Positions 25,731-60,223 of a DNA stretch of 64,000 nt are shown here, one piece after another. Below the pieces are notes generated by a model. That model was not told where the DNA came from. It saw nothing but the letters and a program-made list of their open reading frames with translations, and searched no databases. Source of the DNA: Olleya aquimaris (GTDB lineage: Bacteria > Bacteroidota > Bacteroidia > Flavobacteriales > Flavobacteriaceae); NCBI RefSeq assembly GCF_003259525.1, contig NZ_QLLO01000004.1:62001-126000 (forward strand), in the 5' to 3' direction. Both the position numbers and the translations under genes were made by a program. Position 1 is the first letter of the stretch, and the number at the start of each line of letters is the position of its first letter.

Positions 25731-25761
25731 AAAAAAGCCTTGCAATTGCAAGGCTTTTTTT
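25731..25761. terminator. Bidirectional terminator
   Basis: Perfect 30-bp palindrome centred between 25745 and 25746 (arm AAAAAAGCCTTGCAA), between the convergent MORN-type and beta-helix lipoprotein genes. Confidence 0.92.
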
Positions 25762-49856: not shown

Positions 49857-49921
49857 AAAGTTTTAAAGTTTTTTTAACAATGGACTTTTACATGTGTATA
49901 GTTTGTTAACACTATTTGCTT

Positions 49922-49929
49922 TATTTTTG
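49922..49929 (+). promoter_or_regulatory. -7 promoter box of the polyprenyl synthase gene
   Basis: TATTTTTG (perfect TAnnTTTG), four bases before the ATG at 49934; TTG at 49903-49905 may be the -33 element (16-base spacer). Confidence 0.55.
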
Positions 49930-49933
49930 CATA

Positions 49934-50908
49934 ATGCAAAACATTTCATTTTATCAATCTGTAGTTACAGATTATTTAAAACAGTACTCCTCCACAAAAG
50001 AGCCCAAAAACTTATACGACCCTATACATTATATTTTGGAATTAGGTGGAAAACGTTTACGTCCAGTATTAACATTAATGACTGCTGAGGTTTTTGATGC
50101 AAACTATCAAACCGCTTTAAATGCAGCATTAAGCGTAGAGGTGTTTCATAACTTTTCGTTAGTGCATGACGATATTATGGATGATGCACCTTTAAGACGA
50201 GGACAACAAACTGTACACGAAAAGTGGGATGTTAATACAGGGATTTTGTCTGGAGATGCCATGCTAATTATGGCATATCAATTATTTGAAAATTACCAAC
50301 CACATACATTTCAAGCATTAGCAAAACTATTTAGCAAAACTGCTTTAGAGGTTTGCGAAGGACAGCAATACGATGTGGATTTTGAAACAAGAGACGATGT
50401 GACTATCCCAGAGTATTTAAAAATGATTGAATACAAAACAGCTGTTTTAGTTGGAGCAGCCATGCAAATGGGAGCAATAGTTGCAGGAACCTCTGTTGAA
50501 AATCAAAATAGTATTTATCAATTTGGTAAAAACTTAGGTATAGCTTTTCAATTACAAGATGATTATCTAGATGCGTTTGGTGATCCAAAAACCTTTGGTA
50601 AACAAGTTGGTGGAGATATTATTGAAAACAAAAAGACGTATCTGTACTTAAAGGCATTAGAGTTTTTAAACCAACAAGAAAAACGTCAACTAGAACAATT
50701 ATTTACTGTTAATTTGGAAGATAATTCAGATAAAATTGACACTGTAAAACAGTTTTTTGTTAATTCTGGATCTGCTGAAGCTACGCAACAAGCAATAGAA
50801 GAATATACAAACAAAGCTTTTCAGGTTCTGGAAGCTTTAAGTATTTCTGAAACTAAAAAAGAGATACTTCGTGAGTTTGGAATGGGTTTAATGACCAGAA
50901 AAGTATAA
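49934..50908 (+). CDS. Polyprenyl diphosphate synthase
   Basis: 324-residue trans-isoprenyl diphosphate synthase. First Asp-rich motif LVHDDIMDDAPLRRG, second LQDDYLDAFGD, plus LGGKRLRPVLTL near residue 40. It elongates allylic diphosphates with IPP, probably making the menaquinone side chain precursor or farnesyl/octaprenyl diphosphate; chain length cannot be read reliably. A TTG-started reading six codons longer overlaps the -7 box and is rejected. The ATG lies four bases after a perfect -7 box, so the mRNA is probably leaderless. The next gene overlaps by TAATG. Confidence 0.92.
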   Translation: MQNISFYQSVVTDYLKQYSSTKEPKNLYDPIHYILELGGKRLRPVLTLMTAEVFDANYQTALNAALSVEVFHNFSLVHDDIMDDAPLRRGQQTVHEKWDVNTGILSGDAMLIMAYQLFENYQPHTFQALAKLFSKTALEVCEGQQYDVDFETRDDVTIPEYLKMIEYKTAVLVGAAMQMGAIVAGTSVENQNSIYQFGKNLGIAFQLQDDYLDAFGDPKTFGKQVGGDIIENKKTYLYLKALEFLNQQEKRQLEQLFTVNLEDNSDKIDTVKQFFVNSGSAEATQQAIEEYTNKAFQVLEALSISETKKEILREFGMGLMTRKV

Positions 50909-51258
50909 TGAATCTACCGTCTACATTTGAAGATTTAATTGAAGAAGCCAATACGCTTAATTTGTACCAGAAATTAGTGAGGCAGCTTAATAAAGATTTT
51001 TTGTACGCTAATATCGACTTAGATTTTGACGAAGATATTTTACCTTCAAGTCTAAAGTTTTTACTTCACGAAACCGTTTATAAACTTATTCAAGAAAAAT
51101 TCTCAGAGTACCTAAACCTGCTTTATATTATTGATGTGCCAGAGCATCAAATTAAAGCATTGGATGGGTCAGACACCTTAGAAATGTCTGAAAAAGTTGC
51201 TTTTTTAATTTTAAAACGCGAGTGGCAAAAGGTGTGGTTTAGGCATCAATATTCTTAA
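50908..51258 (+). CDS. Conserved hypothetical protein after polyprenyl synthase
   Basis: 116 residues, acidic, no signal or membrane segment. Start overlaps the stop of the synthase gene (TAATG), so translation is coupled. Contains LNKDFLYANIDLDFDEDILP, LLHETVYKLIQEKFSEYLNL and a C-terminal VWFRHQYS. I know it only as a flavobacterial protein found next to this synthase gene; no function can be given. Confidence 0.8.
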   Translation: MNLPSTFEDLIEEANTLNLYQKLVRQLNKDFLYANIDLDFDEDILPSSLKFLLHETVYKLIQEKFSEYLNLLYIIDVPEHQIKALDGSDTLEMSEKVAFLILKREWQKVWFRHQYS

Positions 51259-51276
51259 TAGGATAAATTTATCTTA
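51259..51276. promoter_or_regulatory. Rrf2 operator, site in the regulator's own promoter
   Basis: Near-perfect palindrome with core GGATAAATTTATC centred at 51267.5, one base off full symmetry. The core AGGATAAATTTATCCT of the nos operon promoter (59580-59595) matches it in 15 of 16 bases. It covers the -33 zone of the Rrf2 promoter, a position suited to autorepression. Confidence 0.65.
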
Positions 51277-51292
51277 TTTAAAGTAAATTACT

Positions 51293-51300
51293 TATCTTTG
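51293..51300 (+). promoter_or_regulatory. -7 promoter box of the Rrf2 gene
   Basis: TATCTTTG (perfect TAnnTTTG), 18 bases before the ATG. Confidence 0.6.
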
Positions 51301-51318
51301 TTTTAAATAGTTAATTAT

Positions 51319-51753
51319 ATGTTTTCAAAAGCTTGCGAATATGGTATTAGAGCCACGATTTTTATTGCAAAAAATTCTGCTGAAGGCAAACGTGTTAGTC
51401 CAAAAGAAATTTCTGAAGAAATAAACTCTCCTCAAGCTTTTACTGCAAAAATATTGCAAGCATTAGTTAAAAACAATCTTATTAAATCAGTTCAAGGAGC
51501 ATATGGTGGTTTTGAGATTGATAAAAATAAAATTTCCAAAATTAAATTAGCACAAATTGTTAATGCTATAGATGGTGATAGTATTTATATTGGTTGTGGA
51601 TTAGGTTTAGATAAATGTGATGAAAACCATCCATGTCCTGTACACGATAAATTTAAAGAGATTCGTGAAGGACTAAGAGCATTACTTGAAAATACTAATT
51701 TAGAAGAGTTGGCCTTAAATATTAAAAAAGGAGTAGCTTTTTTAAAAGTTTAG
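51319..51753 (+). CDS. Rrf2 family transcriptional regulator (NsrR/IscR-like)
   Basis: 144 residues. Winged-helix N terminus MFSKACEYGIRATIFIA, recognition region SPQAFTAKILQALVKNNLI and wing SVQGAYGGFEI. Three cysteines, Cys93, Cys100 and Cys106 (IGCGLGLDKC, NHPCPVHDKF), have spacing C-x6-C-x5-C, close to the C-x5-C-x5-C cluster of IscR and NsrR, so an Fe-S cluster sensing NO, oxygen or iron state is likely. It faces the nos operon tail to tail, and a shared palindrome links its own promoter with the nos promoter. Effector and sign of regulation are not proved. Confidence 0.92.
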   Translation: MFSKACEYGIRATIFIAKNSAEGKRVSPKEISEEINSPQAFTAKILQALVKNNLIKSVQGAYGGFEIDKNKISKIKLAQIVNAIDGDSIYIGCGLGLDKCDENHPCPVHDKFKEIREGLRALLENTNLEELALNIKKGVAFLKV

Positions 51754-52203: not shown

Positions 52204-52986
52204 TTAAAAATCTTTTTTCTTTGATTTAAACATAATTCTTAACACTGGTAAGACCACCCAAAGGGTTAATGTTACAAAAGATACAATTATTCCGAAGCTG
52301 GTCCCGAAAAATTGTTTAAAAACTGCACCTGTATAACCTAGTAATGCAGAAATGTCTAGCTTTAAAAGGATTAAAGTCCTGGATAAATCAATTGGATTTA
52401 ACATGGTACCAATTAAGGACACTTTGTCCAGTGGATAATCTTCAAACATAATTAGTGTCATTAAAAATAATCCATCATAAATAACAGCAAGAAACAACCA
52501 TAATAAAATAGCATATCCAAACCCTTTTATTTTGTTCTCGTTTGATAACGCAATGTTAAAGGCTAAAGCTGTAAATATTAAGGTTAAAAAAGTACCAGTA
52601 ATTAATAATAGAGAAAAATCCCAAATAGCACTACTTTGAAACAATCCATAAAACACAAACGGAATTCCTAATCCTAAAACTAAGCTCATAGAAAGTGATA
52701 TGGCCACCCCTAAATATTGACCTAAAAATATGGAGGACCGTTTTAAAGGCTGTGCTAATAGCAACTCAGTAAATTCTTTAGAATTATAATAATACATCAC
52801 ACCAAAAATAGTCCCAATTAAAGGCACTAATACTATAATAACGTTCATTAAGGTAATGACAGCTTTTGATAGATCGTTATTTAAAAACAATAACACAATT
52901 CCTAATAACAAATAAAAGCCGAAATACACGTAACTCCAGCGACTGCGCATTAGATCGAAAAAACTATATTTTAATATTTTAAGCAT
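52204..52986 (-). CDS. nosY: NosY-type ABC transporter permease
   Basis: 260 residues, six membrane segments, the permease partner of NosF in maturation of the nitrous oxide reductase copper centres. Start set at MLKILKYSFFDLMRSRW: it overlaps the nosF 3' end by eight bases; a reading 12 codons longer would overlap by more than 40 bases. Family features: YYNSKEFTELLLAQPLKRSS and SMSLVLGLGIPFVFYG. Confidence 0.9.
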   Translation of the reverse strand: MLKILKYSFFDLMRSRWSYVYFGFYLLLGIVLLFLNNDLSKAVITLMNVIIVLVPLIGTIFGVMYYYNSKEFTELLLAQPLKRSSIFLGQYLGVAISLSMSLVLGLGIPFVFYGLFQSSAIWDFSLLLITGTFLTLIFTALAFNIALSNENKIKGFGYAILLWLFLAVIYDGLFLMTLIMFEDYPLDKVSLIGTMLNPIDLSRTLILLKLDISALLGYTGAVFKQFFGTSFGIIVSFVTLTLWVVLPVLRIMFKSKKKDF

Positions 52987-53686
52987 GATTATCTGATAAT
53001 ATTGACGCAATTGCATGCTCAAAATCTGGCTGCTGTGTCTTGGTTTTTAATTCTTGAATAGTGCCTTTAAAGTAAATTTTTCCTTCTAAAATAAATACAA
53101 TTTCATCAGAAACCTCTTCAACAAAACTCATAATATGCGATGTAATAAGTATAGTCTTGCCTTTAGCTTTTTCGGCTTTAATTAAATCTTTTAATCTTAT
53201 TAACGAAATAGGATCTAAACCTGTTGTTGGTTCGTCTAAAATTACTAATGCACTATCAAACATAAAGGTTAAAACAAGGTTTACTTTTTGTTTAGTGCCT
53301 CCAGATAATTGCCCTAATTTTTTATCTAAAAAAGGTTCTAGCCTAAATAGTTTTATTAACTGTTCATCTTCATTGGTAGGTTTGCGTAAATCTTTAATCA
53401 TTTTAATTAATTCTTTTACACGAAGATTGCTTGGAAAATTAGCTATTTGAGGTAAATAATCTATTTTATGTCTGTAGTCAGAGTTTTTATAAATGTTTTC
53501 TCCTAGAACTGTAATATTTCCTTTATTAGGTATAACCATGCCTAAAACCGCTTTAATTAAAGTAGTTTTACCAGAACCGTTTGGTCCAAGCACTGCAAAA
53601 ATTCCGCCTTCATTAATGGTTAAATTAACACCACTTAAGACTTGATTTTTCCCAAATTTTTTATGTAAATTTTCAATAATTACCAT
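52979..53686 (-). CDS. nosF: NosF-type ABC transporter ATP-binding protein
   Basis: 235 residues. Walker A GPNGSGKTTL (about 34-43), signature LSGGTKQKVNL, Walker B ALVILDEPTTGLDP and switch His in TSHIM. With NosY and NosD it supports CuZ site assembly of N2O reductase. Start overlaps the nosD stop by seven bases; the nosY start overlaps its end. Confidence 0.92.
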   Translation of the reverse strand: MVIIENLHKKFGKNQVLSGVNLTINEGGIFAVLGPNGSGKTTLIKAVLGMVIPNKGNITVLGENIYKNSDYRHKIDYLPQIANFPSNLRVKELIKMIKDLRKPTNEDEQLIKLFRLEPFLDKKLGQLSGGTKQKVNLVLTFMFDSALVILDEPTTGLDPISLIRLKDLIKAEKAKGKTILITSHIMSFVEEVSDEIVFILEGKIYFKGTIQELKTKTQQPDFEHAIASILSDNHA

Positions 53687-54918
53687 GTTATTTTTTTCAT
53701 TTGTGGTTTATTATCCAATAAATTATCAGGTGTAAAAACAGGTGATACTTTTTCAGAAAAATCAATAATATCTATAAACATACTACGTAATAAAATGATG
53801 GTTTCTGGAGTACGATTAACAATGTAAGAAAATAGTTTTACAGGTCGATAAGGCACGTCTCCATTGCCATCTTTGTCTAAGTCGTAACCTGTGTAATTAC
53901 TCCAATAGTTTTTGTCAAATAGGTTATCATTTACATTGCTATTGTAGGCAATGTCAAAAGAGTTGTATAAAAAGTTATTCTCTATAAATGTATTAGTGTA
54001 ACAAGCGCCTTTTATTTTTATAGCCCAACCATTGTTTTTAAAATTATTATGCTGGTATATAATACGATTAGAGCCTTCTATATTTATGCCTATGGTGTTG
54101 TTTTCAAATGTATTACCTATAATTTTGGCATCATTTATTTCTTTTAATAGCATGCCATAAGAAGCAGTTCCCCAATTTTCTTTAAACGTATTATTATACA
54201 TTTTTATTTTTTTTGAGAACATAACTGCAACACCTGCTCCGTTGTTTTCAAAAGTGTTATCACAATATTCATCGTTATTAGAAAACATAAAATGTAAACC
54301 GTATCTTATGTTTTCTGCACTAACATTATTTTTTATGAGGCAATCGTCAGAAAATTCTAAATAAATACCATCACGTACATGCTCCACATAATTATGTTCA
54401 ATTTCTATATGGTTACTGTACCATAATTGTATGCCATTTCCAGAGTTATATTCTTCTTTAGCGTCACCTATAATTTTGTTATGATACACTCTACCGTAAC
54501 TTGATTTTTCAAGATAAATACCAAAAAAAAGTTTTTCTAAAACAAGGTTCTGAATCAGGAAATGTTTGCTTTTTTTTATTCTAATGGCTGCATAATCTTC
54601 GGTATAACTTGTGCCAACGTTAATTATAAATAAACCGTCAACAGTAACATGATCTGCTGTAATAGTAATAATTTCACCTTTTAATTCGCCATCAATTATA
54701 GGATAGTTTTCTCCTATTATAGTAAGTGACTTATCCACTAAAATAGAATGCTCTTTATAGGTGCCTTTTTTAACTCGGATAGTATCAAAATCTTTAGCTT
54801 GCGTGATAGCTTTCTTTAAAGTTGAAACAGGGCAAGTTTCACATACGTTAATAGTTTGAGCATGTGAAAACAATGACGTAATTAGCAGAATTATAAAACT
54901 TAATATTGTTTTTGTCAT
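53680..54918 (-). CDS. nosD: NosD, periplasmic copper-maturation factor
   Basis: 412 residues. Signal peptide (FIILLITSLFSHAQ) followed by a right-handed beta-helix built of NosD repeats with many N-N-x-F/I turns (NGIQLWYSNHIEIEHNYVEH, NNDEYCDNTFENNGAGVAVM). Two cysteines in CETCPVSTL near the N terminus may bind copper. It receives copper for NosZ in the periplasm, working with NosFY. Order nosD-nosF-nosY with overlaps is the conserved nos arrangement. Confidence 0.93.
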   Translation of the reverse strand: MTKTILSFIILLITSLFSHAQTINVCETCPVSTLKKAITQAKDFDTIRVKKGTYKEHSILVDKSLTIIGENYPIIDGELKGEIITITADHVTVDGLFIINVGTSYTEDYAAIRIKKSKHFLIQNLVLEKLFFGIYLEKSSYGRVYHNKIIGDAKEEYNSGNGIQLWYSNHIEIEHNYVEHVRDGIYLEFSDDCLIKNNVSAENIRYGLHFMFSNNDEYCDNTFENNGAGVAVMFSKKIKMYNNTFKENWGTASYGMLLKEINDAKIIGNTFENNTIGINIEGSNRIIYQHNNFKNNGWAIKIKGACYTNTFIENNFLYNSFDIAYNSNVNDNLFDKNYWSNYTGYDLDKDGNGDVPYRPVKLFSYIVNRTPETIILLRSMFIDIIDFSEKVSPVFTPDNLLDNKPQMKKITW

Positions 54919-54920
54919 GA

Positions 54921-55214
54921 TTATCTAATAATCAAAAATTTAGAATTCTGAATAGCTTTTACCCAATGGTCTTTATCTTTTGGGAAACTGAAAATTTGAT
55001 GTTTTAAAAGAGTATAATCTGTATTATTTATAGTGAAAATAATTTTGCCTTCCAAAACCAATAAATAAGCATCTCTTGGTGAGGAGTGTTTAGGAAAAAC
55101 AGCATTGGCTTCTAAACTAATATGAAGCATTTCTTTAGCTTCAATATCTAAAATCTTTTTTGCTTTTAAACCCTCGTATGGTGTTTGATTTAATATGTTG
55201 TTAGTTAAATACAT
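54921..55214 (-). CDS. Small cupin-like protein in the nos operon
   Basis: 97 residues, no signal peptide, so probably cytosolic. Cupin pattern: LHISLEANAVFPKHSSPRDA, YLLVLEGKIIFTINN, FSFPKDKDHWVKAIQ, with likely metal ligands His and Glu/His of the two cupin motifs. It is placed between nosL (six bases) and nosD (two bases), so its expression is tied to N2O reduction. It could be a sensor or a metal-handling factor; the function is unknown. Confidence 0.75.
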   Translation of the reverse strand: MYLTNNILNQTPYEGLKAKKILDIEAKEMLHISLEANAVFPKHSSPRDAYLLVLEGKIIFTINNTDYTLLKHQIFSFPKDKDHWVKAIQNSKFLIIR

Positions 55215-55220
55215 AGCCTT

Positions 55221-55655
55221 TTATTTTAGGTGTAATTTTAATTCTTCCCAATTGTATAGTGTACCACCTTTTTCTGATTGTACTTTTTCTGCATCCACTT
55301 TATTTTTAAAAGCAGATAAAAAAGCACCCATTGGACTAGGTACGTTTTTGCTTATTAAAAATGTGGCTTTATTAGCATCAATAAGTACTTCAGGCTCGGT
55401 ATAGTTGTTGGATAAGAATAAGCCAACCTCAGAAGTGTCAAAGTCTTCTAAAAAATGAATCATACATTCTGTAGCATCAAACTTATAGACTTTTCCTTTT
55501 TTAGTTACAATTTCTGCAGCATGGATTTTATCTACAATGGTCATTTTACAGAAATGACATCCATCATTTCCATAATCTATGGGTTGTGGTGAGATATTAC
55601 AGCCTACAAAAAATAGCGATAATATAAGTGTTAAAAGGTGTTTTAGTGTTTTCAT
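55221..55655 (-). CDS. nosL: NosL, copper-binding lipoprotein
   Basis: 144 residues. Lipobox FFVGC (Cys19); conserved NosL block CHFCKMTIVDKIHAAEIVTK with Cys33, Cys36 and Met38 as likely Cu(I) ligands, followed by KFDATECMIHFL. NosL delivers copper to apo-NosZ, probably together with NosDFY. Located in the nos operon after the 199-residue membrane protein gene. Confidence 0.93.
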   Translation of the reverse strand: MKTLKHLLTLILSLFFVGCNISPQPIDYGNDGCHFCKMTIVDKIHAAEIVTKKGKVYKFDATECMIHFLEDFDTSEVGLFLSNNYTEPEVLIDANKATFLISKNVPSPMGAFLSAFKNKVDAEKVQSEKGGTLYNWEELKLHLK

Positions 55656-55682: not shown

Positions 55683-56282
55683 TTACATAATCTTAAGTTT
55701 TCTATTATTTTTCTTACCAACGATATAGGCTATAAATCCTGTGGCTATTCCTAAGCCTAAAAATAAAGCACCTAATTGTGGATAGGAGTGTGCTCTAAAA
55801 TTAAGAATGTCTTTACTTCCAAAAAGAGGTGGTTGAAAGCCCATTTGAGTTCCATCTGGATTAGTAAATTTCATGATGGCTTTCGGATCTAGATTATGTC
55901 CATAATCATGCTCCCAAAGGTAAAAGTCATACATGCCTGCTGCACTTAATACTAGCATTAATATAAACCATGCTAAAAACCATTTATAATTTCCTTTAAA
56001 GGCTATTATTAAACCAATTAGTGTGGTAATAAGTATTCCTGCCGGAAATATTTTAAACTCTGGAATAGCATCTGGAATGTACTGCATGCCCACATAATGA
56101 TTCATTAAATTTATATTTTTAATATCATGAGGGTTGGCGTCAGAAAAATCATTAATGTGTATATACATACCTAATGGTGTCGGATATTGTGGTGCTTCCA
56201 AAGTGATTTTCCAGAGTGGAAACAAGAATAATCCTAAAGGTAAAATTGCTGCAATTAGCATAATGATGTTTGACTTTTTCAT
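55683..56282 (-). CDS. Membrane protein of Bacteroidota nos clusters
   Basis: 199 residues. Four hydrophobic segments (about 6-24, 78-96, 101-120 and 172-191) with a periplasmic loop (about 27-70) and another rich in His/Asp (FYLWEHDYGHNLDP, RAHSYPQLGALFLGLG). It sits between nosZ and nosL, where clade II nos clusters often encode such a protein. Its role, perhaps electron or copper supply, is not established. Confidence 0.82.
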   Translation of the reverse strand: MKKSNIIMLIAAILPLGLFLFPLWKITLEAPQYPTPLGMYIHINDFSDANPHDIKNINLMNHYVGMQYIPDAIPEFKIFPAGILITTLIGLIIAFKGNYKWFLAWFILMLVLSAAGMYDFYLWEHDYGHNLDPKAIMKFTNPDGTQMGFQPPLFGSKDILNFRAHSYPQLGALFLGLGIATGFIAYIVGKKNNRKLKIM

Positions 56283-56423: not shown

Positions 56424-58397
56424 TTATTCTTCTATTTCTTCTCCTAACGACCATTTTAATGGTACATCTGAGTTGCTAGGTGAGACTCTAATATAACCTT
56501 GCATTTCTTGGTGTAATGCAGAACAGAAATCTGTACAATAAAATGGCCACACACCTACTTTTGTTGGTTCCCAAACCGATGTTTTAGTTTGTCCTGGCAT
56601 GATTAATAACTCTGAAGTATTTTGTCCAAGTACAGCAAAGCCATGTGGGACGTCAAAGTCTTGTTCTAAATTTGTTACATGGAAGTACACTTTATCTCCT
56701 AACTTAATACCTTCAATGTTGTCTGGTGAAAAGTGACTTCTAATTGTGGTCATATAAATATGCACCTCGTTACCTTTTCGTACAATCTTAACATCATCAT
56801 CAGAAAAAGCTGCATAAGGGTGTTTGTTGTCTTCTAAGTTGTAAATTTTTTGAGATCGTTCTTTAATAATATCTGCTCGCATTGCAGCAGCATAATGTGG
56901 TTCTCCATGTGTTGGAAAATCTAATAGTAACTCCATTTTATCTCCAGAAATATCATACAGTTGAGCACTGTGCTCTAATTCTGGACCTGTTGGTAAGTAT
57001 CTGTCTTTTGTTATTTTATTCATAGCAAACATATATTTACCTTGAGGTTTTCTAGAGTTTCCTCCAGGAATGGTTAAATGACCAACAGAATAGTATGTAG
57101 GTTTTCTATCAATAACTTCCCAAGTGCCTAATTTCCATTTTACAACTTCAGAAGAAATAAAGAACGTTGTATACGCATTACCTTCACTATCAAACTCTGT
57201 ATGTAAAGGTCCTAAACCTGCTTGTTCAACAGAACCAGCTAAAACATCTTCAAATTTTAAAATAGGAATACCATAGGCTTCACCATCAAATTTCTTACTA
57301 TCAATAGCAGCTAACATTTTGGTAAAAGAATGTACTGTCAGATTAGCTGATAGTTTACCATTACCTACAATATATTCTCCAGAAGGATCTACATCACAAC
57401 CATGAGGCGACTTTGGTGTTGGTAAGAAAAATACAGCTCCTGGCACATCTGTTGGGTTAACAACACGTACTTGTTTTTTCATTGTAGAGGTTGCTGTATG
57501 TGTATGTTCATCATAAACATTATGTGCATAGTCTGCAGGCATCATTTTTCCGCCTCCATTATTTACATATTCTTCAATTTTTTTCCAGTTTATTGCTGCA
57601 ATAAAATCTTTATCGTTTTGAGAAGCATTAACTTCTAATAATGTACTTGCTTCTTCAGAATTATAAGTTGAGAAGAAAAACCAACCATGTGAGGCACCTC
57701 GTCCAGGATGGGCTAAGTCATAATTAAAACCTGGCATAAGCACTTGAAATTTGATATCCATAGCTCCAGTTTCTGGTGCTACACTAATAAAAGATAATGC
57801 ACCTTGAAAATTACCTTTATATTCAATAATTGGCATATCACGTTGCGGAATTGGAACCGAAAAACGTGTTCCAGCGACAACATATTCTGTATTTTCTGTT
57901 ACAAATGAAGAACTGTGGTTACCAGCACTATTTGGGACTTCGATAATCTCTGTAGTTTCAAATGTTTTAAGATCAATTTTTGCGATTCTTGGTGTGTTAT
58001 TTTCGTTAATAAAAATAAAACGACCATCAATCTCTCCATTGGTTTGTGAAATATCTGGATGGTGAGAATCTCCCCAAGGTATAAAGCCATGAGAGGTGTT
58101 TAACATTGGCTTAGTTTCTTCAGAATACCCATAACCTGAAGTTGGAAATTGAGAAAACACAGGAATCTCCTTAAACATTCTACCTGATGGTAATCCATAG
58201 ACTGTTAAATTACCACTGTATCCTCCAGAAATGAAGGCGTAAAACTCGTCATGCTCTCCAGGAGCAACGTACACTTTTTCAGCTACATTACTTGCTAATG
58301 CACCAGATTTATTATTTGATTTGCTAGAATTATTACAACTTGTTAATCCTATCAAGATTGCCAAAGTTGCGAAAACAATTTGTATTGAATTTTTCAT
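56424..58397 (-). CDS. nosZ: Nitrous oxide reductase, Sec-type (clade II) lipoprotein form
   Basis: 657 residues. It reduces N2O to N2 in the periplasm. The N terminus is a Sec lipoprotein signal (lipobox LTSC, Cys21) with no twin-arginine motif, as in clade II NosZ. The beta-propeller with the CuZ His ligands spans about 45-540 (GDSHHPDIS, SPHGCDVDPSG, HTEFDSEGN) and the C-terminal cupredoxin CuA domain about 545-645 carries PHGFAVL and FYCTDFCSALHQEM. It is third gene of the nos operon, and all accessory genes for copper maturation follow. Confidence 0.96.
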   Translation of the reverse strand: MKNSIQIVFATLAILIGLTSCNNSSKSNNKSGALASNVAEKVYVAPGEHDEFYAFISGGYSGNLTVYGLPSGRMFKEIPVFSQFPTSGYGYSEETKPMLNTSHGFIPWGDSHHPDISQTNGEIDGRFIFINENNTPRIAKIDLKTFETTEIIEVPNSAGNHSSSFVTENTEYVVAGTRFSVPIPQRDMPIIEYKGNFQGALSFISVAPETGAMDIKFQVLMPGFNYDLAHPGRGASHGWFFFSTYNSEEASTLLEVNASQNDKDFIAAINWKKIEEYVNNGGGKMMPADYAHNVYDEHTHTATSTMKKQVRVVNPTDVPGAVFFLPTPKSPHGCDVDPSGEYIVGNGKLSANLTVHSFTKMLAAIDSKKFDGEAYGIPILKFEDVLAGSVEQAGLGPLHTEFDSEGNAYTTFFISSEVVKWKLGTWEVIDRKPTYYSVGHLTIPGGNSRKPQGKYMFAMNKITKDRYLPTGPELEHSAQLYDISGDKMELLLDFPTHGEPHYAAAMRADIIKERSQKIYNLEDNKHPYAAFSDDDVKIVRKGNEVHIYMTTIRSHFSPDNIEGIKLGDKVYFHVTNLEQDFDVPHGFAVLGQNTSELLIMPGQTKTSVWEPTKVGVWPFYCTDFCSALHQEMQGYIRVSPSNSDVPLKWSLGEEIEE

Positions 58398-58426: not shown

Positions 58427-59002
58427 TTATTCGGTTGGAGGTAATAATACTTTGTCAATAACATGTACTATTCCATTACCTGCATTAATACTTGCAAGAA
58501 TTTTTGCACCTCCAATGACTGGCTCACCATTTACAACTTCAACTTTTACATAACCATTATTGGCTTGGCCTAGTTTTTTAAATTTCTTTAAAAAGTCTTT
58601 AGAGTAATTCCCAGGTGTCACATGATATTTTAAAATATTTGCTAAAGCTTCTTTGTTTTCTGGTTTTAATAAATTTTCTACAGTACCTTCAGGTAAGGCT
58701 GCAAAGGCGTCGTTAGTTGGTGCAAATACCATTAATGGACCTGCGTTTACTAAAGCATTTTCTAATGAAGCTGCTTGTACAGCATCCACTAAAGTTGTGT
58801 GGTCTTTAGATTCCATTGCAATGCTTAAAACAGTAGGTTTACTTTCATCATCTTTTATAAAAGCTTGTCCAGATTTTTTATCTGGTGTAGCAGCTGTAGA
58901 TGTTGTTGTTGTCGAGGTTGAGTTTTGGTTATTAGTTTCTTTGCATGAATAAGTTAAAACAACACATACACAAACTAATAATAGTTGCTTGATTGGTTTC
59001 AT
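58427..59002 (-). CDS. Fasciclin-domain lipoprotein in the nos operon
   Basis: 191 residues. Lipobox LTYSC (Cys20), a Ser/Thr-rich linker (22-45), then one FAS1 domain (about 62-188) with TLVDAVQAASLENALVNAGP, LMVFAPTNDAFAALP, LKYHVTPG and GNGIVHVIDKVLLP. FAS1 domains mediate protein contacts. Between the cytochrome c gene and nosZ, it may hold redox partners together at the membrane; this is inference. Confidence 0.88.
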   Translation of the reverse strand: MKPIKQLLLVCVCVVLTYSCKETNNQNSTSTTTTSTAATPDKKSGQAFIKDDESKPTVLSIAMESKDHTTLVDAVQAASLENALVNAGPLMVFAPTNDAFAALPEGTVENLLKPENKEALANILKYHVTPGNYSKDFLKKFKKLGQANNGYVKVEVVNGEPVIGGAKILASINAGNGIVHVIDKVLLPPTE

Positions 59003-59008
59003 AATAAG

Positions 59009-59512
59009 TTATTTTAAAGTTCTAAAATATTCTAGTACTGCTCTTGCATCTTCTTCTGTAAGTCCTTGATTAGCCATAGGAGAACCATTAAACTCCATTA
59101 ATAGTTCTTTAGCTAAGGGGTCTTCTTTAACCATTTGTTCTGGATTTAAAATCATATTCATTACCCATTCTGGTGTACGACGCTCTAAAATTCCAGTTGG
59201 TGCAGGTCCAATAAATTTTTTATTAGGTCTGTGACAAGCAGTACACATTTTTTTGAAGACTTCAGTTCCATGGGTAACCAATTTTCGGTCAATCTCATTT
59301 CCTAGGTCAATGTTTTTTATTGGGCCAACGCCTTTATTAACTAAATCTACTTTATTAGAGGCTAGTATTTTTTCTGGTTTAATAGCAGTTGTTTGATCTG
59401 TGGTTGTTTTCTTTTCGTATGAAAAGGTTTCTTTTTTCTTTTCATCTTTCCCACCACAACTAATTAAAAGTGTAGCAAAAAAAATAGTCATAAGTTTTAG
59501 TGTTGTTTTCAT
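59009..59512 (-). CDS. Mono-haem cytochrome c lipoprotein of the nos operon
   Basis: 167 residues. Lipobox LISC (Cys19), a charged linker to about 70, then a class I cytochrome c domain with CTACHRP (Cys90-His94) and distal Met146 in GSPMANQGL. Likely electron donor to NosZ. It is the first gene of the ten-gene nos operon: the regulated promoter with an FNR-like site and Rrf2 palindrome lies directly upstream. Confidence 0.92.
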   Translation of the reverse strand: MKTTLKLMTIFFATLLISCGGKDEKKKETFSYEKKTTTDQTTAIKPEKILASNKVDLVNKGVGPIKNIDLGNEIDRKLVTHGTEVFKKMCTACHRPNKKFIGPAPTGILERRTPEWVMNMILNPEQMVKEDPLAKELLMEFNGSPMANQGLTEEDARAVLEYFRTLK

Positions 59513-59531: not shown

Positions 59532-59539
59532 CAAAATTA
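59532..59539 (-). promoter_or_regulatory. -7 promoter box of the nos operon
   Basis: Minus strand reads TAATTTTG (perfect TAnnTTTG). Predicted transcription start about 59527, 15 bases before the first start codon. Confidence 0.6.
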
Positions 59540-59561
59540 CAAATAGGTTGTAGCTTAAAAC

Positions 59562-59575
59562 ATGATAAAAATCAT
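59562..59575. promoter_or_regulatory. FNR/CRP-like site in the nos promoter
   Basis: ATGATAAAAATCAT is a perfect inverted repeat with a 4-base spacer, 12 of 14 to the FNR consensus TTGATnnnnATCAA. Its centre (59568.5) is 41.5 bases upstream of the predicted start, the position of class II FNR/CRP activators. Confidence 0.55.
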
Positions 59576-59577
59576 AT

Positions 59578-59597
59578 TTAGGATAAATTTATCCTAA
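59578..59597. promoter_or_regulatory. Rrf2 operator upstream of the nos operon
   Basis: Perfect 20-bp palindrome (core GGATAAATTTATCC, centre 59587.5, about -60). A near-identical copy lies in the promoter of the Rrf2 gene at the other end of the cluster. Confidence 0.65.
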
Positions 59598-59677: not shown

Positions 59678-60223
59678 TTAAAAGAACACCCTAACAAAAG
59701 GGACCCAAGCATTAGCATAAACGCTTTTGGTGTCGTCGTAAAGTAAATCGTATCGTATACCAACAGTAACATTGTTAGTTCTGTAACCAGCACCAACAAA
59801 TAAAGCAGGTACCCAATAATTTCTATCTGGATTATTCGAAAAACTACCTTCAAATTTTTGATTTACATTAAGTTGCTCAAACTCGGCAGATAATTGTATC
59901 TCTTGGATAGGGTTGTAAAAAGACATAATACTACCACCAAGTATAGTAGATTTATAAACATTTTTACTTCGGTTATAGGTTCCATTTAATCCAACACCTA
60001 AAGCAAATGCATTATCAAACTGGTAAATAGCACTTGGAGCCAAAGTCGCACTAAAAAAATTATTTCCGGTACTTAATCCTAAACCACCTCCAAAACGTAC
60101 ATTTTCCCAAAAATCACCGCTTTGTTTAGGTGGATTATCTTGTGCAATTGATGATGTTGTAAAAAAACAAGCAACAATTGTTAAAATGATAATTCTAATG
60201 CTTTTAATAAAGCTTATTTTCAT
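59678..60223 (-). CDS. Outer-membrane beta-barrel-like protein
   Basis: 181 residues. Signal peptide ending SSIAQ, then alternating amphipathic strands (NVRFGGGLGLSTGNNFFSAT, ALFVGAGYRTNNVTVGIRYD) and a C-terminal aromatic end FVRVFF as in small barrels. Names such as alpha-ketoglutarate decarboxylase sometimes given to such proteins come only from the sucA neighbour. Function unknown. Confidence 0.8.
   Translation of the reverse strand: MKISFIKSIRIIILTIVACFFTTSSIAQDNPPKQSGDFWENVRFGGGLGLSTGNNFFSATLAPSAIYQFDNAFALGVGLNGTYNRSKNVYKSTILGGSIMSFYNPIQEIQLSAEFEQLNVNQKFEGSFSNNPDRNYWVPALFVGAGYRTNNVTVGIRYDLLYDDTKSVYANAWVPFVRVFF

Follow-up and report, generated by a model that had tools for sequence, protein, structure and literature searches.

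The predicted nos operon of Olleya aquimaris is preceded by three sequence blocks, an Rrf2-type palindrome, an FNR-like site, and a sigma-A -7 box, and the same blocks recur at fixed spacing before the nos genes of related bacteria. From the bases and their alignment, we regard this three-block architecture as almost certainly real. The best explanation that we found for it, and on balance a probable one, is class II activation by an FNR-like protein gated by an NsrR-like Rrf2 repressor that nitric oxide (NO) would relieve. N2O is a strong greenhouse gas, and clade II nosZ organisms, flavobacteria included, are proposed N2O sinks in which the signals that switch nos are little described. Given its recurrence in many relatives, this composite switch may help set when N2O is removed, and the two regulators, two sites, and one start point named here offer mutable targets.

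The nos promoter and its conservation

We analyzed a stretch of 64,000 nucleotides, here called the window. The promoter blocks and the genes of the nos cluster are listed below; the names fasciclin-like, NosL-like, cupin-like, nosF-like, and nosY-like are our assumptions.

59578-59597, Rrf2-type palindrome TTAGGATAAATTTATCCTAA in the minus-strand reading; perfect over 20 bp, center 59587.5, predicted at -60.5, PWM score 19.5
59562-59575, FNR-like site, ATGATAAAAATCAT on the plus strand and ATGATTTTTATCAT on the minus strand; center 59568.5, predicted at -41.5
59539-59532, minus strand, sigma-A -7 box TAATTTTG; predicted at -12 to -5
59527 (+/-1 base), minus strand, predicted transcription start (A), placed from the box and the Y-A of the relatives
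59009-59512, minus strand, c-type cytochrome, first gene of the predicted nos operon; open reading frame (ORF), with weak cytochrome c profile matches, all below cut-off
58427-59002, minus strand, fasciclin-like lipoprotein gene; ORF and position in the nos cluster, no NCBIfam match
56424-58397, minus strand, nosZ, Sec-dependent (clade II) nitrous-oxide reductase; TIGR04246 944 bits, cut-off 625
55683-56282, minus strand, unnamed membrane protein of the nos cluster; no NCBIfam or Pfam match
55221-55655, minus strand, NosL-like lipoprotein; ORF and position in the cluster, no NCBIfam match
54921-55214, minus strand, small cupin-like protein; ORF and position in the cluster, no NCBIfam match
53680-54918, minus strand, nosD; TIGR04247 449.5 bits, cut-off 300
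52979-53686, minus strand, nosF-like ABC ATPase; named from sequence and position
52204-53022, minus strand, nosY-like permease; named from position, no NCBIfam match

Every base of the perfect 20-bp palindrome centered at 59587.5, of the FNR-like site centered at 59568.5, and of the box TAATTTTG was verified in the sequence, as the first-pass annotation had read them. All three blocks lie upstream of the cytochrome c start codon, which is at 59512 on the minus strand. The annotation had also put the FNR-like center at -41.5 by taking as the start 59527, five bases past the box, and the Y-A initiator of the relatives independently agrees with this predicted position. The base preceding 59527 in the window is A, so 59528 suits a T-A start equally well. 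A sigma-A box at -12 to -5 is stated for Flavobacterium psychrophilum in the available part of PMC9723704. Inspection by eye found no clear -33 element at the nos promoter.

The frequencies with which the blocks would occur by chance differ. Perfect palindromes of at least 20 bp number two in the window, versus a mean of 0.17 and a largest count of 3 in 30 dinucleotide shuffles. (The other one is a 30-bp inverted repeat, AAAAAAGCCTTGCAATTGCAAGGCTTTTTT, at 25731-25760 with its center at 25745.5, perhaps a two-way terminator.) The palindrome core, with up to two mismatches allowed, is found at two places in the window, at nos and at 51261-51274; 8 of 100 shuffles reach two. The FNR-like pattern alone was not above chance, with 26 places in the genome versus 49 for the reversed control pattern, and TTGATNNNNATCAA with two mismatches gave 99 matches in the window versus 88 expected. 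The FNR-like site plus exactly 22 bp plus TAnnTTTG, however, occurs 440 times in 120 family genomes versus once for the reversed control. Thus, the finding stands above chance because of context and conservation, not because of the FNR-like pattern by itself.

For comparison we used the best 80 of 576 relative nosZ loci, each taken as 22 kb. A cytochrome c gene is upstream of nosZ in 79 of these 80; the exception, L077, begins at nosZ and is excluded from the promoter counts, which cover 79 relatives and the window. In this set from the best 80 of 576, 79 of the 80 promoters have an exact ATGAYNNNNRTCAT; in 73 of 80, with distances of 26 to 35 bp allowed, the center of TAnnTTTG is exactly 33 bp away from that of the FNR-like site. 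This form of the inner site departs from the FNR consensus, TTGATNNNNATCAA, at the outer base. A palindrome scoring at least 7 is found 18 to 20 bp upstream of the FNR-like center in 74 of 78 relatives from the same best 80 of 576; the distance is 19 bp in 67 of the 74, 20 bp in 4, and 18 bp in 3. One locus, L092, is an exception in that its fasciclin gene comes first and the composite precedes that gene, at -41.5 and -61.5. Across the 79 promoters, anything between 55 and 159 bp separates the FNR site from the start codon, and the blocks are therefore kept while their surroundings change. The first-pass annotation had named, as grounds against its reading, alignments with neither palindrome conserved before nos operons; both are conserved at fixed spacing, and the reading is supported.

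A genus-balanced set gave a second view of the promoter. It comprised 120 genomes of the family, one per genus, of which 56 have nosZ; 54 nos upstream regions were examined, the window's genome and G058 (which ends at a contig edge) being left out. Seven regions had no usable FNR site plus box and were dropped (G001, G007, G016, G022, G037, G066, and G077, with G037 and G066 cut by a contig end), and the other 47, in which the FNR site is exact and the box, 33 bp away, has no more than one mismatch, were aligned. Because these 47 were picked by FNR site and box, their conservation there is by construction, and it is the 80-promoter counts that test those two blocks. In the alignment of the 47, the palindrome arms stand above the flanks and the spacers do not. 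The initiator column has A in 33 of 47, with a pyrimidine preceding it in 38 of 47; a start in this column gives positions of -12 to -5 for the box, -41.5 for the FNR-like site, and -60.5 for the palindrome. Class II placement of the FNR-like site thus agrees, for the predicted start, with the fixed 33-bp box spacing and the Y-A initiator. The palindrome reached the threshold in 39 of the 47 promoters, versus 1 of 517 control offsets and 0.23% of shuffles. The PWM had been built from the block as aligned in the 79 relatives, and some genomes are, or may be, in both that set and the genus-balanced one; consequently, this result rests on the control offsets and shuffles, not on independence.

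The FNR-like protein and its predicted sites

The O. aquimaris genome encodes three PF00027 proteins, one of which, near ccoNO, is FNR-like and has both the sensor domain (PF00027, 69.6 bits) and the Crp helix-turn-helix (HTH) (PF13545, 55.5 bits). Its best NCBIfam model is Fnr, at 96.5 bits, below the cut-off of 228. In this one sequence the C-x2-C and the central Cys align and the third N-terminal Cys of E. coli-type FNR is missing, so [4Fe-4S] oxygen sensing is not assured. The earlier assignment of the inner site to FNR is supported by -41.5 modules common to hemN and ccoNO and by a site directly preceding the FNR-like gene. On this evidence, we are confident that an FNR-like protein would read the inner site.

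The 33-bp module precedes hemN, ccoNO, deoC, and nos in the O. aquimaris genome. Counted in 30 genomes at one site each, it precedes hemN in 4, the nos cytochrome c gene in 5, ccoNO in 2, norC in 1, and unidentified genes in 18. The deoC gene, which we name from its sequence, was an unexpected member of the low-oxygen set; in its promoter (L104, G000:C2:392168), TAACTTTG lies 33 bp from an FNR-like site. At the FNR-like gene itself, the site (L128:10275-10288) is only 19 bp from the box TACATTTG, a spacing that would suit autorepression. On the opposite strand at this site, AACCTTTG was seen by eye 33 bp off, towards a CcoI-type ATPase gene. FNR-plus-box modules were also seen before an unnamed family of proteins of roughly 205 to 224 amino acids (aa) (L139, L142, L143, and L144).

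The Rrf2 protein and its predicted palindrome

The window also contains an rrf2 gene with its own copy of the palindrome.

51319-51753, plus strand, rrf2, Rrf2-family regulator with C-x6-C-x5-C-x2-H; PF02082 90.4 bits (cut-off 30), TIGR00738 90.6 bits (cut-off 73.3)
51258-51277, second palindrome copy ATAGGATAAATTTATCTTAT; predicted at -37.5 at the rrf2 promoter, score 20.0
51293-51300, plus strand, -7 box TATCTTTG of rrf2

The core of this second copy (51261-51274) lies 45 to 58 bp upstream of the rrf2 start, ahead of TATCTTTG. The window protein belongs to the Rrf2 superfamily, scoring above the cut-offs of both PF02082 and TIGR00738, and is one of two Rrf2 proteins (PF02082) encoded in the genome. 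It could not be named more closely by profile, since NsrR (NF008240) gave 31.1 bits versus a cut-off of 182 and IscR (TIGR02010) gave 55.9 bits versus a cut-off of 207.55. NsrR was rejected by motif as well: compared by reading, the NsrR motif given in the available text of PMC1274295, gATGyAT-N5-ATrCATc, differs from RRGAYAWWWWTRTCYY here.

Three Cys and one His are invariant in 72 aligned Rrf2 proteins, including the genome's second Rrf2, which has a wider first gap. We called Rrf2 proteins type A or type B by a 50% identity cut only, and C-x6-C-x5-C-x2-H is invariant in both. The Cys spacing of the IscR cluster is C-x5-C-x5-C, so that the first spacing in the Rrf2 protein is one residue longer. 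The top-scoring solved chains were IscR and CymR, and the C-x2-H end aligns with IscR 4hf2, a chain whose Cys are replaced. The Rrf2 protein probably holds an Fe-S cluster through its three Cys and one His.

The palindrome had been attributed to an Rrf2 protein. This attribution is strengthened by matching palindromes before the window rrf2 and the stand-alone rrf2 genes of relatives, and by the lack of the palindrome in the three testable nos genomes without this Rrf2; that Rrf2 would read the palindrome we consider highly probable. Among the 120 genomes, this rrf2 group (defined by a best E of 1.4e-18 or lower to the window protein) is present in 51 of 56 with nosZ versus 18 of 64 without (Fisher P = 9e-13). 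The palindrome was found in 39 of 44 nos promoters from rrf2-bearing genomes, the other 5 scoring below 7, versus none of 3 from genomes without this Rrf2 (P = 0.0035). Those three promoters keep the FNR site, and the box is intact in two and has one mismatch in the third. For the other two nosZ genomes without this Rrf2, G016 shows no FNR site and the G058 sequence stops at a contig edge. Before stand-alone rrf2 genes with at least 50% identity to the window's, a palindrome scoring at least 7 was present in 22 of 25, versus 5.6% of 1,364 other genes in the same loci; the three below 7 were in L021, L025, and L041, the last having only 61 bp of upstream DNA.

Thirty-eight other genes scored at least 13: 15 ric-like, 4 nirK-like, 2 norC-like, 2 nos, 10 for small Cys proteins, and 5 others. 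Classes were assigned by reading the sequences, with profiles run for representatives; those for ric (TIGR03652, 246 bits) and nirK (TIGR02376, 357 bits) were both above the curated cut-offs. Genes next to rrf2 in genomes without nosZ include one or more for quinol NO reductase as well as ric and nor genes. By site prediction, the regulon in the relatives comprises NO detoxification and denitrification genes, as that of NsrR does, with ric-, nirK-, and norC-like genes and quinol NO reductase genes. The quinol NO reductase matched PF22085 and PF00115 in Pfam and no model in NCBIfam. The names NorC and NorB are presumed, with neighborhood as a guide, as profile searches of these proteins gave cytochrome c and COX1 only, with PF22085 below cut-off for NorC. 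A guess that one gene encodes a truncated globin was rejected (19.8 versus a Pfam cut-off of 21).

In the O. aquimaris genome itself (2.95 Mb), exact RRGAYAWWWWTRTCYY occurs at 6 places versus 4 for the reversed control; 4 are within ORFs, and the 2 intergenic places precede nos and rrf2. Allowing up to two mismatches, GGATAAATTTATCC occurs at 17 places, 14 of them within ORFs and 3 intergenic (nos, rrf2, and C12:25169). The place at C12:25169 has two mismatches and does not match the wider consensus. As the intergenic matches are essentially nos and rrf2, these patterns lend no support to a broader set of Rrf2 targets in this genome.

The position of the palindrome varies among the target promoters. 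At rrf2 promoters it is at about -35 to -37. Three of five nirK-like promoters (L071, L079, and L224) have it at +15 to +18, and the other two (L028:17474 and L035:19975) have it at -60.5, in the nos layout; among nirK-like genes, the operator seems to have shifted its position from one species to another. At norC promoters it is at +21 to +22 in two of five, the two with the FNR module. The FNR-plus-box module was absent from all 17 ric promoters examined and was missing from the other three of five norC promoters. A gene for a small Cys protein has the composite: its FNR-like site is at -41.5, and its palindrome is at -60.5 (L045:4778, L046:4778, and L055:3111) or -61.5 (L066:4549). In related small genes (L026, L027, L030, L031, and L076), the palindrome is 19 bp upstream of the called start and there is no FNR-plus-box module.

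Probable control of nos, its alternatives, and known systems

The -41.5 position is one at which FNR touches RNA polymerase, and the palindrome at -60.5 fills the 20 bp next to the FNR site. At low oxygen, the genome's FNR-like protein would bind ATGATAAAAATCAT at -41.5 and recruit RNA polymerase to the -7 box. The Rrf2 protein would bind the palindrome at -60.5 as well as the copy in its own promoter; occupying the DNA beside FNR to which the polymerase alpha subunit would bind, it would probably keep the nos operon low until NO (or cluster loss) released it. That nos is switched on by low oxygen and gated by Rrf2 are both predictions. Because the palindromes of rrf2, three of the five nirK, and two of the five norC promoters are at ordinary repressor positions, the regulon is most simply explained by NO-relieved repression, and because nirK is served by both layouts, the two layouts are suggested to share one sign. 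The nos palindrome is, however, upstream at -60.5, unlike the position of a simple roadblock. We judge an NO or nitrosative signal to be likely, and net repression of nos by Rrf2 to be likely as well.

A different signal is conceivable, in that the gate may respond, like IscR, to iron-sulfur, iron, or oxidative status and not to NO. The solved chains that scored highest, the C-x2-H end that aligns with IscR, the invariant C-x6-C-x5-C-x2-H of both types, and an IscR profile score of 56 bits versus 31 for NsrR are in keeping with such a sensor. However, the genes with palindromes and the neighbors of rrf2 are mostly linked to NO (ric, nirK, nor, and quinol NO reductase), and the genome's second Rrf2 could take the role of IscR. 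We consider an IscR-like signal unlikely.

The sign of control may also differ: Rrf2 could co-activate nos by contacting polymerase from -60.5, beside FNR, in the manner of a class I activator, while sites in or downstream of other promoters would serve it for repression. In favor of this, IscR is known as a repressor and as an activator, and class I activators classically act from -61.5. The rigid phasing at nos, exactly 19 bp from the FNR-like site in 67 of 74 relatives from the best 80 of 576, fits co-activation, as does the small Cys-protein gene that repeats the upstream layout (L045, L046, and L055, with L066 at -61.5). However, occlusion of the alpha subunit would require identical phasing, nirK palindromes at +15 to +18 (three loci) and at -60.5 (two loci) suit one sign, and NsrR lowers FNR-driven nrf expression in the available text of PMC12285233. 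On these points co-activation appears rather doubtful. An extended form, in which a single Fe-S Rrf2 has a sign coded by position, is more doubtful again. Here Rrf2 would repress ric, norC, and itself and would serve as a co-activator or timing element at -60.5 (nos and some nirK), so that the N2O sink is timed apart from NO defense and a non-denitrifying N2O reducer retains the sensor to detect the NO of its neighbors.

In many relatives a second Rrf2 gene adjoins the nos promoter divergently and shares the palindrome, which might then serve autoregulation of that rrf2 and be beside nos by accident. This is very improbable, since the neighbor in the window (59678-60223) runs in the same direction as nos and the palindrome there is still perfect, and since the palindrome is kept where the 22-kb locus shows only a distant rrf2 (e.g., L023, L032, and L058). 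A chance AT-rich palindrome beside a chance FNR-like match, with which the lack of enrichment of the FNR-like pattern alone would agree, is contradicted by alignments that show conservation and fixed spacing across genera, and has a negligible probability.

Control by FNR plus NO-relieved Rrf2 repression, the reading that we prefer, has parallels elsewhere. At E. coli nrf, NsrR is said to bind an upstream site, in work by Browning from 2010. According to the available excerpts, the nrf promoter has FNR at -41.5 (PMC5434802) and is repressed by the NO-sensing Rrf2-family protein NsrR (PMC12285233). As far as these excerpts go, the nos promoter is the same in having, by prediction, an FNR-like site at -41.5 and Rrf2-family repression; it differs in operon, phylum, TAnnTTTG sigma box, palindrome, and an Rrf2 that scores below the NsrR cut-off. 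The Neisseria aniA/norB intergenic region, in the part of PMC10187123 at hand, places denitrification genes under FNR and NsrR. Likened by genes and regulators only, it has the same type of regulator pair, there for nitrite and NO reductase genes and in another phylum. The comparative genomics of the NsrR regulon, in the available text of PMC1274295, lists hmp, dnrN/ytfE, and denitrification genes, as well as hcp with an FNR-like and an NsrR site, and places NsrR in proteobacteria, Bacillus, and actinobacteria, not in Bacteroidota. In sediment metagenomes, clade II nos scaffolds were enriched in Rrf2-family genes (available part of PMC6264515); the Rrf2-nos association is common to that work and ours, and DNA sites and promoter anatomy are given only here, as far as that part extends.

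No description of these sites in Bacteroidota was found in the open-license literature. Control by FNR plus NsrR is, from the excerpts above, already known (E. coli nrf and hcp and Neisseria aniA). As far as the open-license literature goes, the motif, an Rrf2 group whose window protein is below the NsrR and IscR cut-offs, the rigid -60.5/-41.5 nos layout across genera, and the extent of the regulon are new.

Single-protein searches of the O. aquimaris genome for NirK, cNorB, quinol NO reductase, and Ric, run with no positive control and with cd1 NirS outside their range, found none of these. NO might therefore need an outside source, and the host may be a non-denitrifying N2O reducer that senses external NO. 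Cloacibacterium CB-01 is a non-denitrifying N2O reducer for which, in the available text of PMC11168931, the cells that appear to switch to NosZ after oxygen depletion in broth are only a fraction (0.03 in one fit), whereas in digestate all cells appear to switch. If CB-01 carries the composite promoter, one way to explain its partial switching would be a further gate, next to FNR, that depends on the medium.

Three loci without nosZ bear on the surroundings of rrf2. L226 (G017:C2:253500-260500), which has no nosZ match, looks like a decayed nos locus: flanked by polyprenyl synthetase and sucA-like genes, it retains rrf2, a ric-like gene, an FNR site, and a cytochrome c frame of the nos type. 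In L234 and L237, the order of a gene that we take to encode polyprenyl synthetase, a gene of 116 to 117 aa, and rrf2 is conserved with that of the window at 49916-51753, where the first gene is presumably the same. In both of these loci rrf2 is followed by ric, a place that is taken in the window by the far end of the nos cluster.
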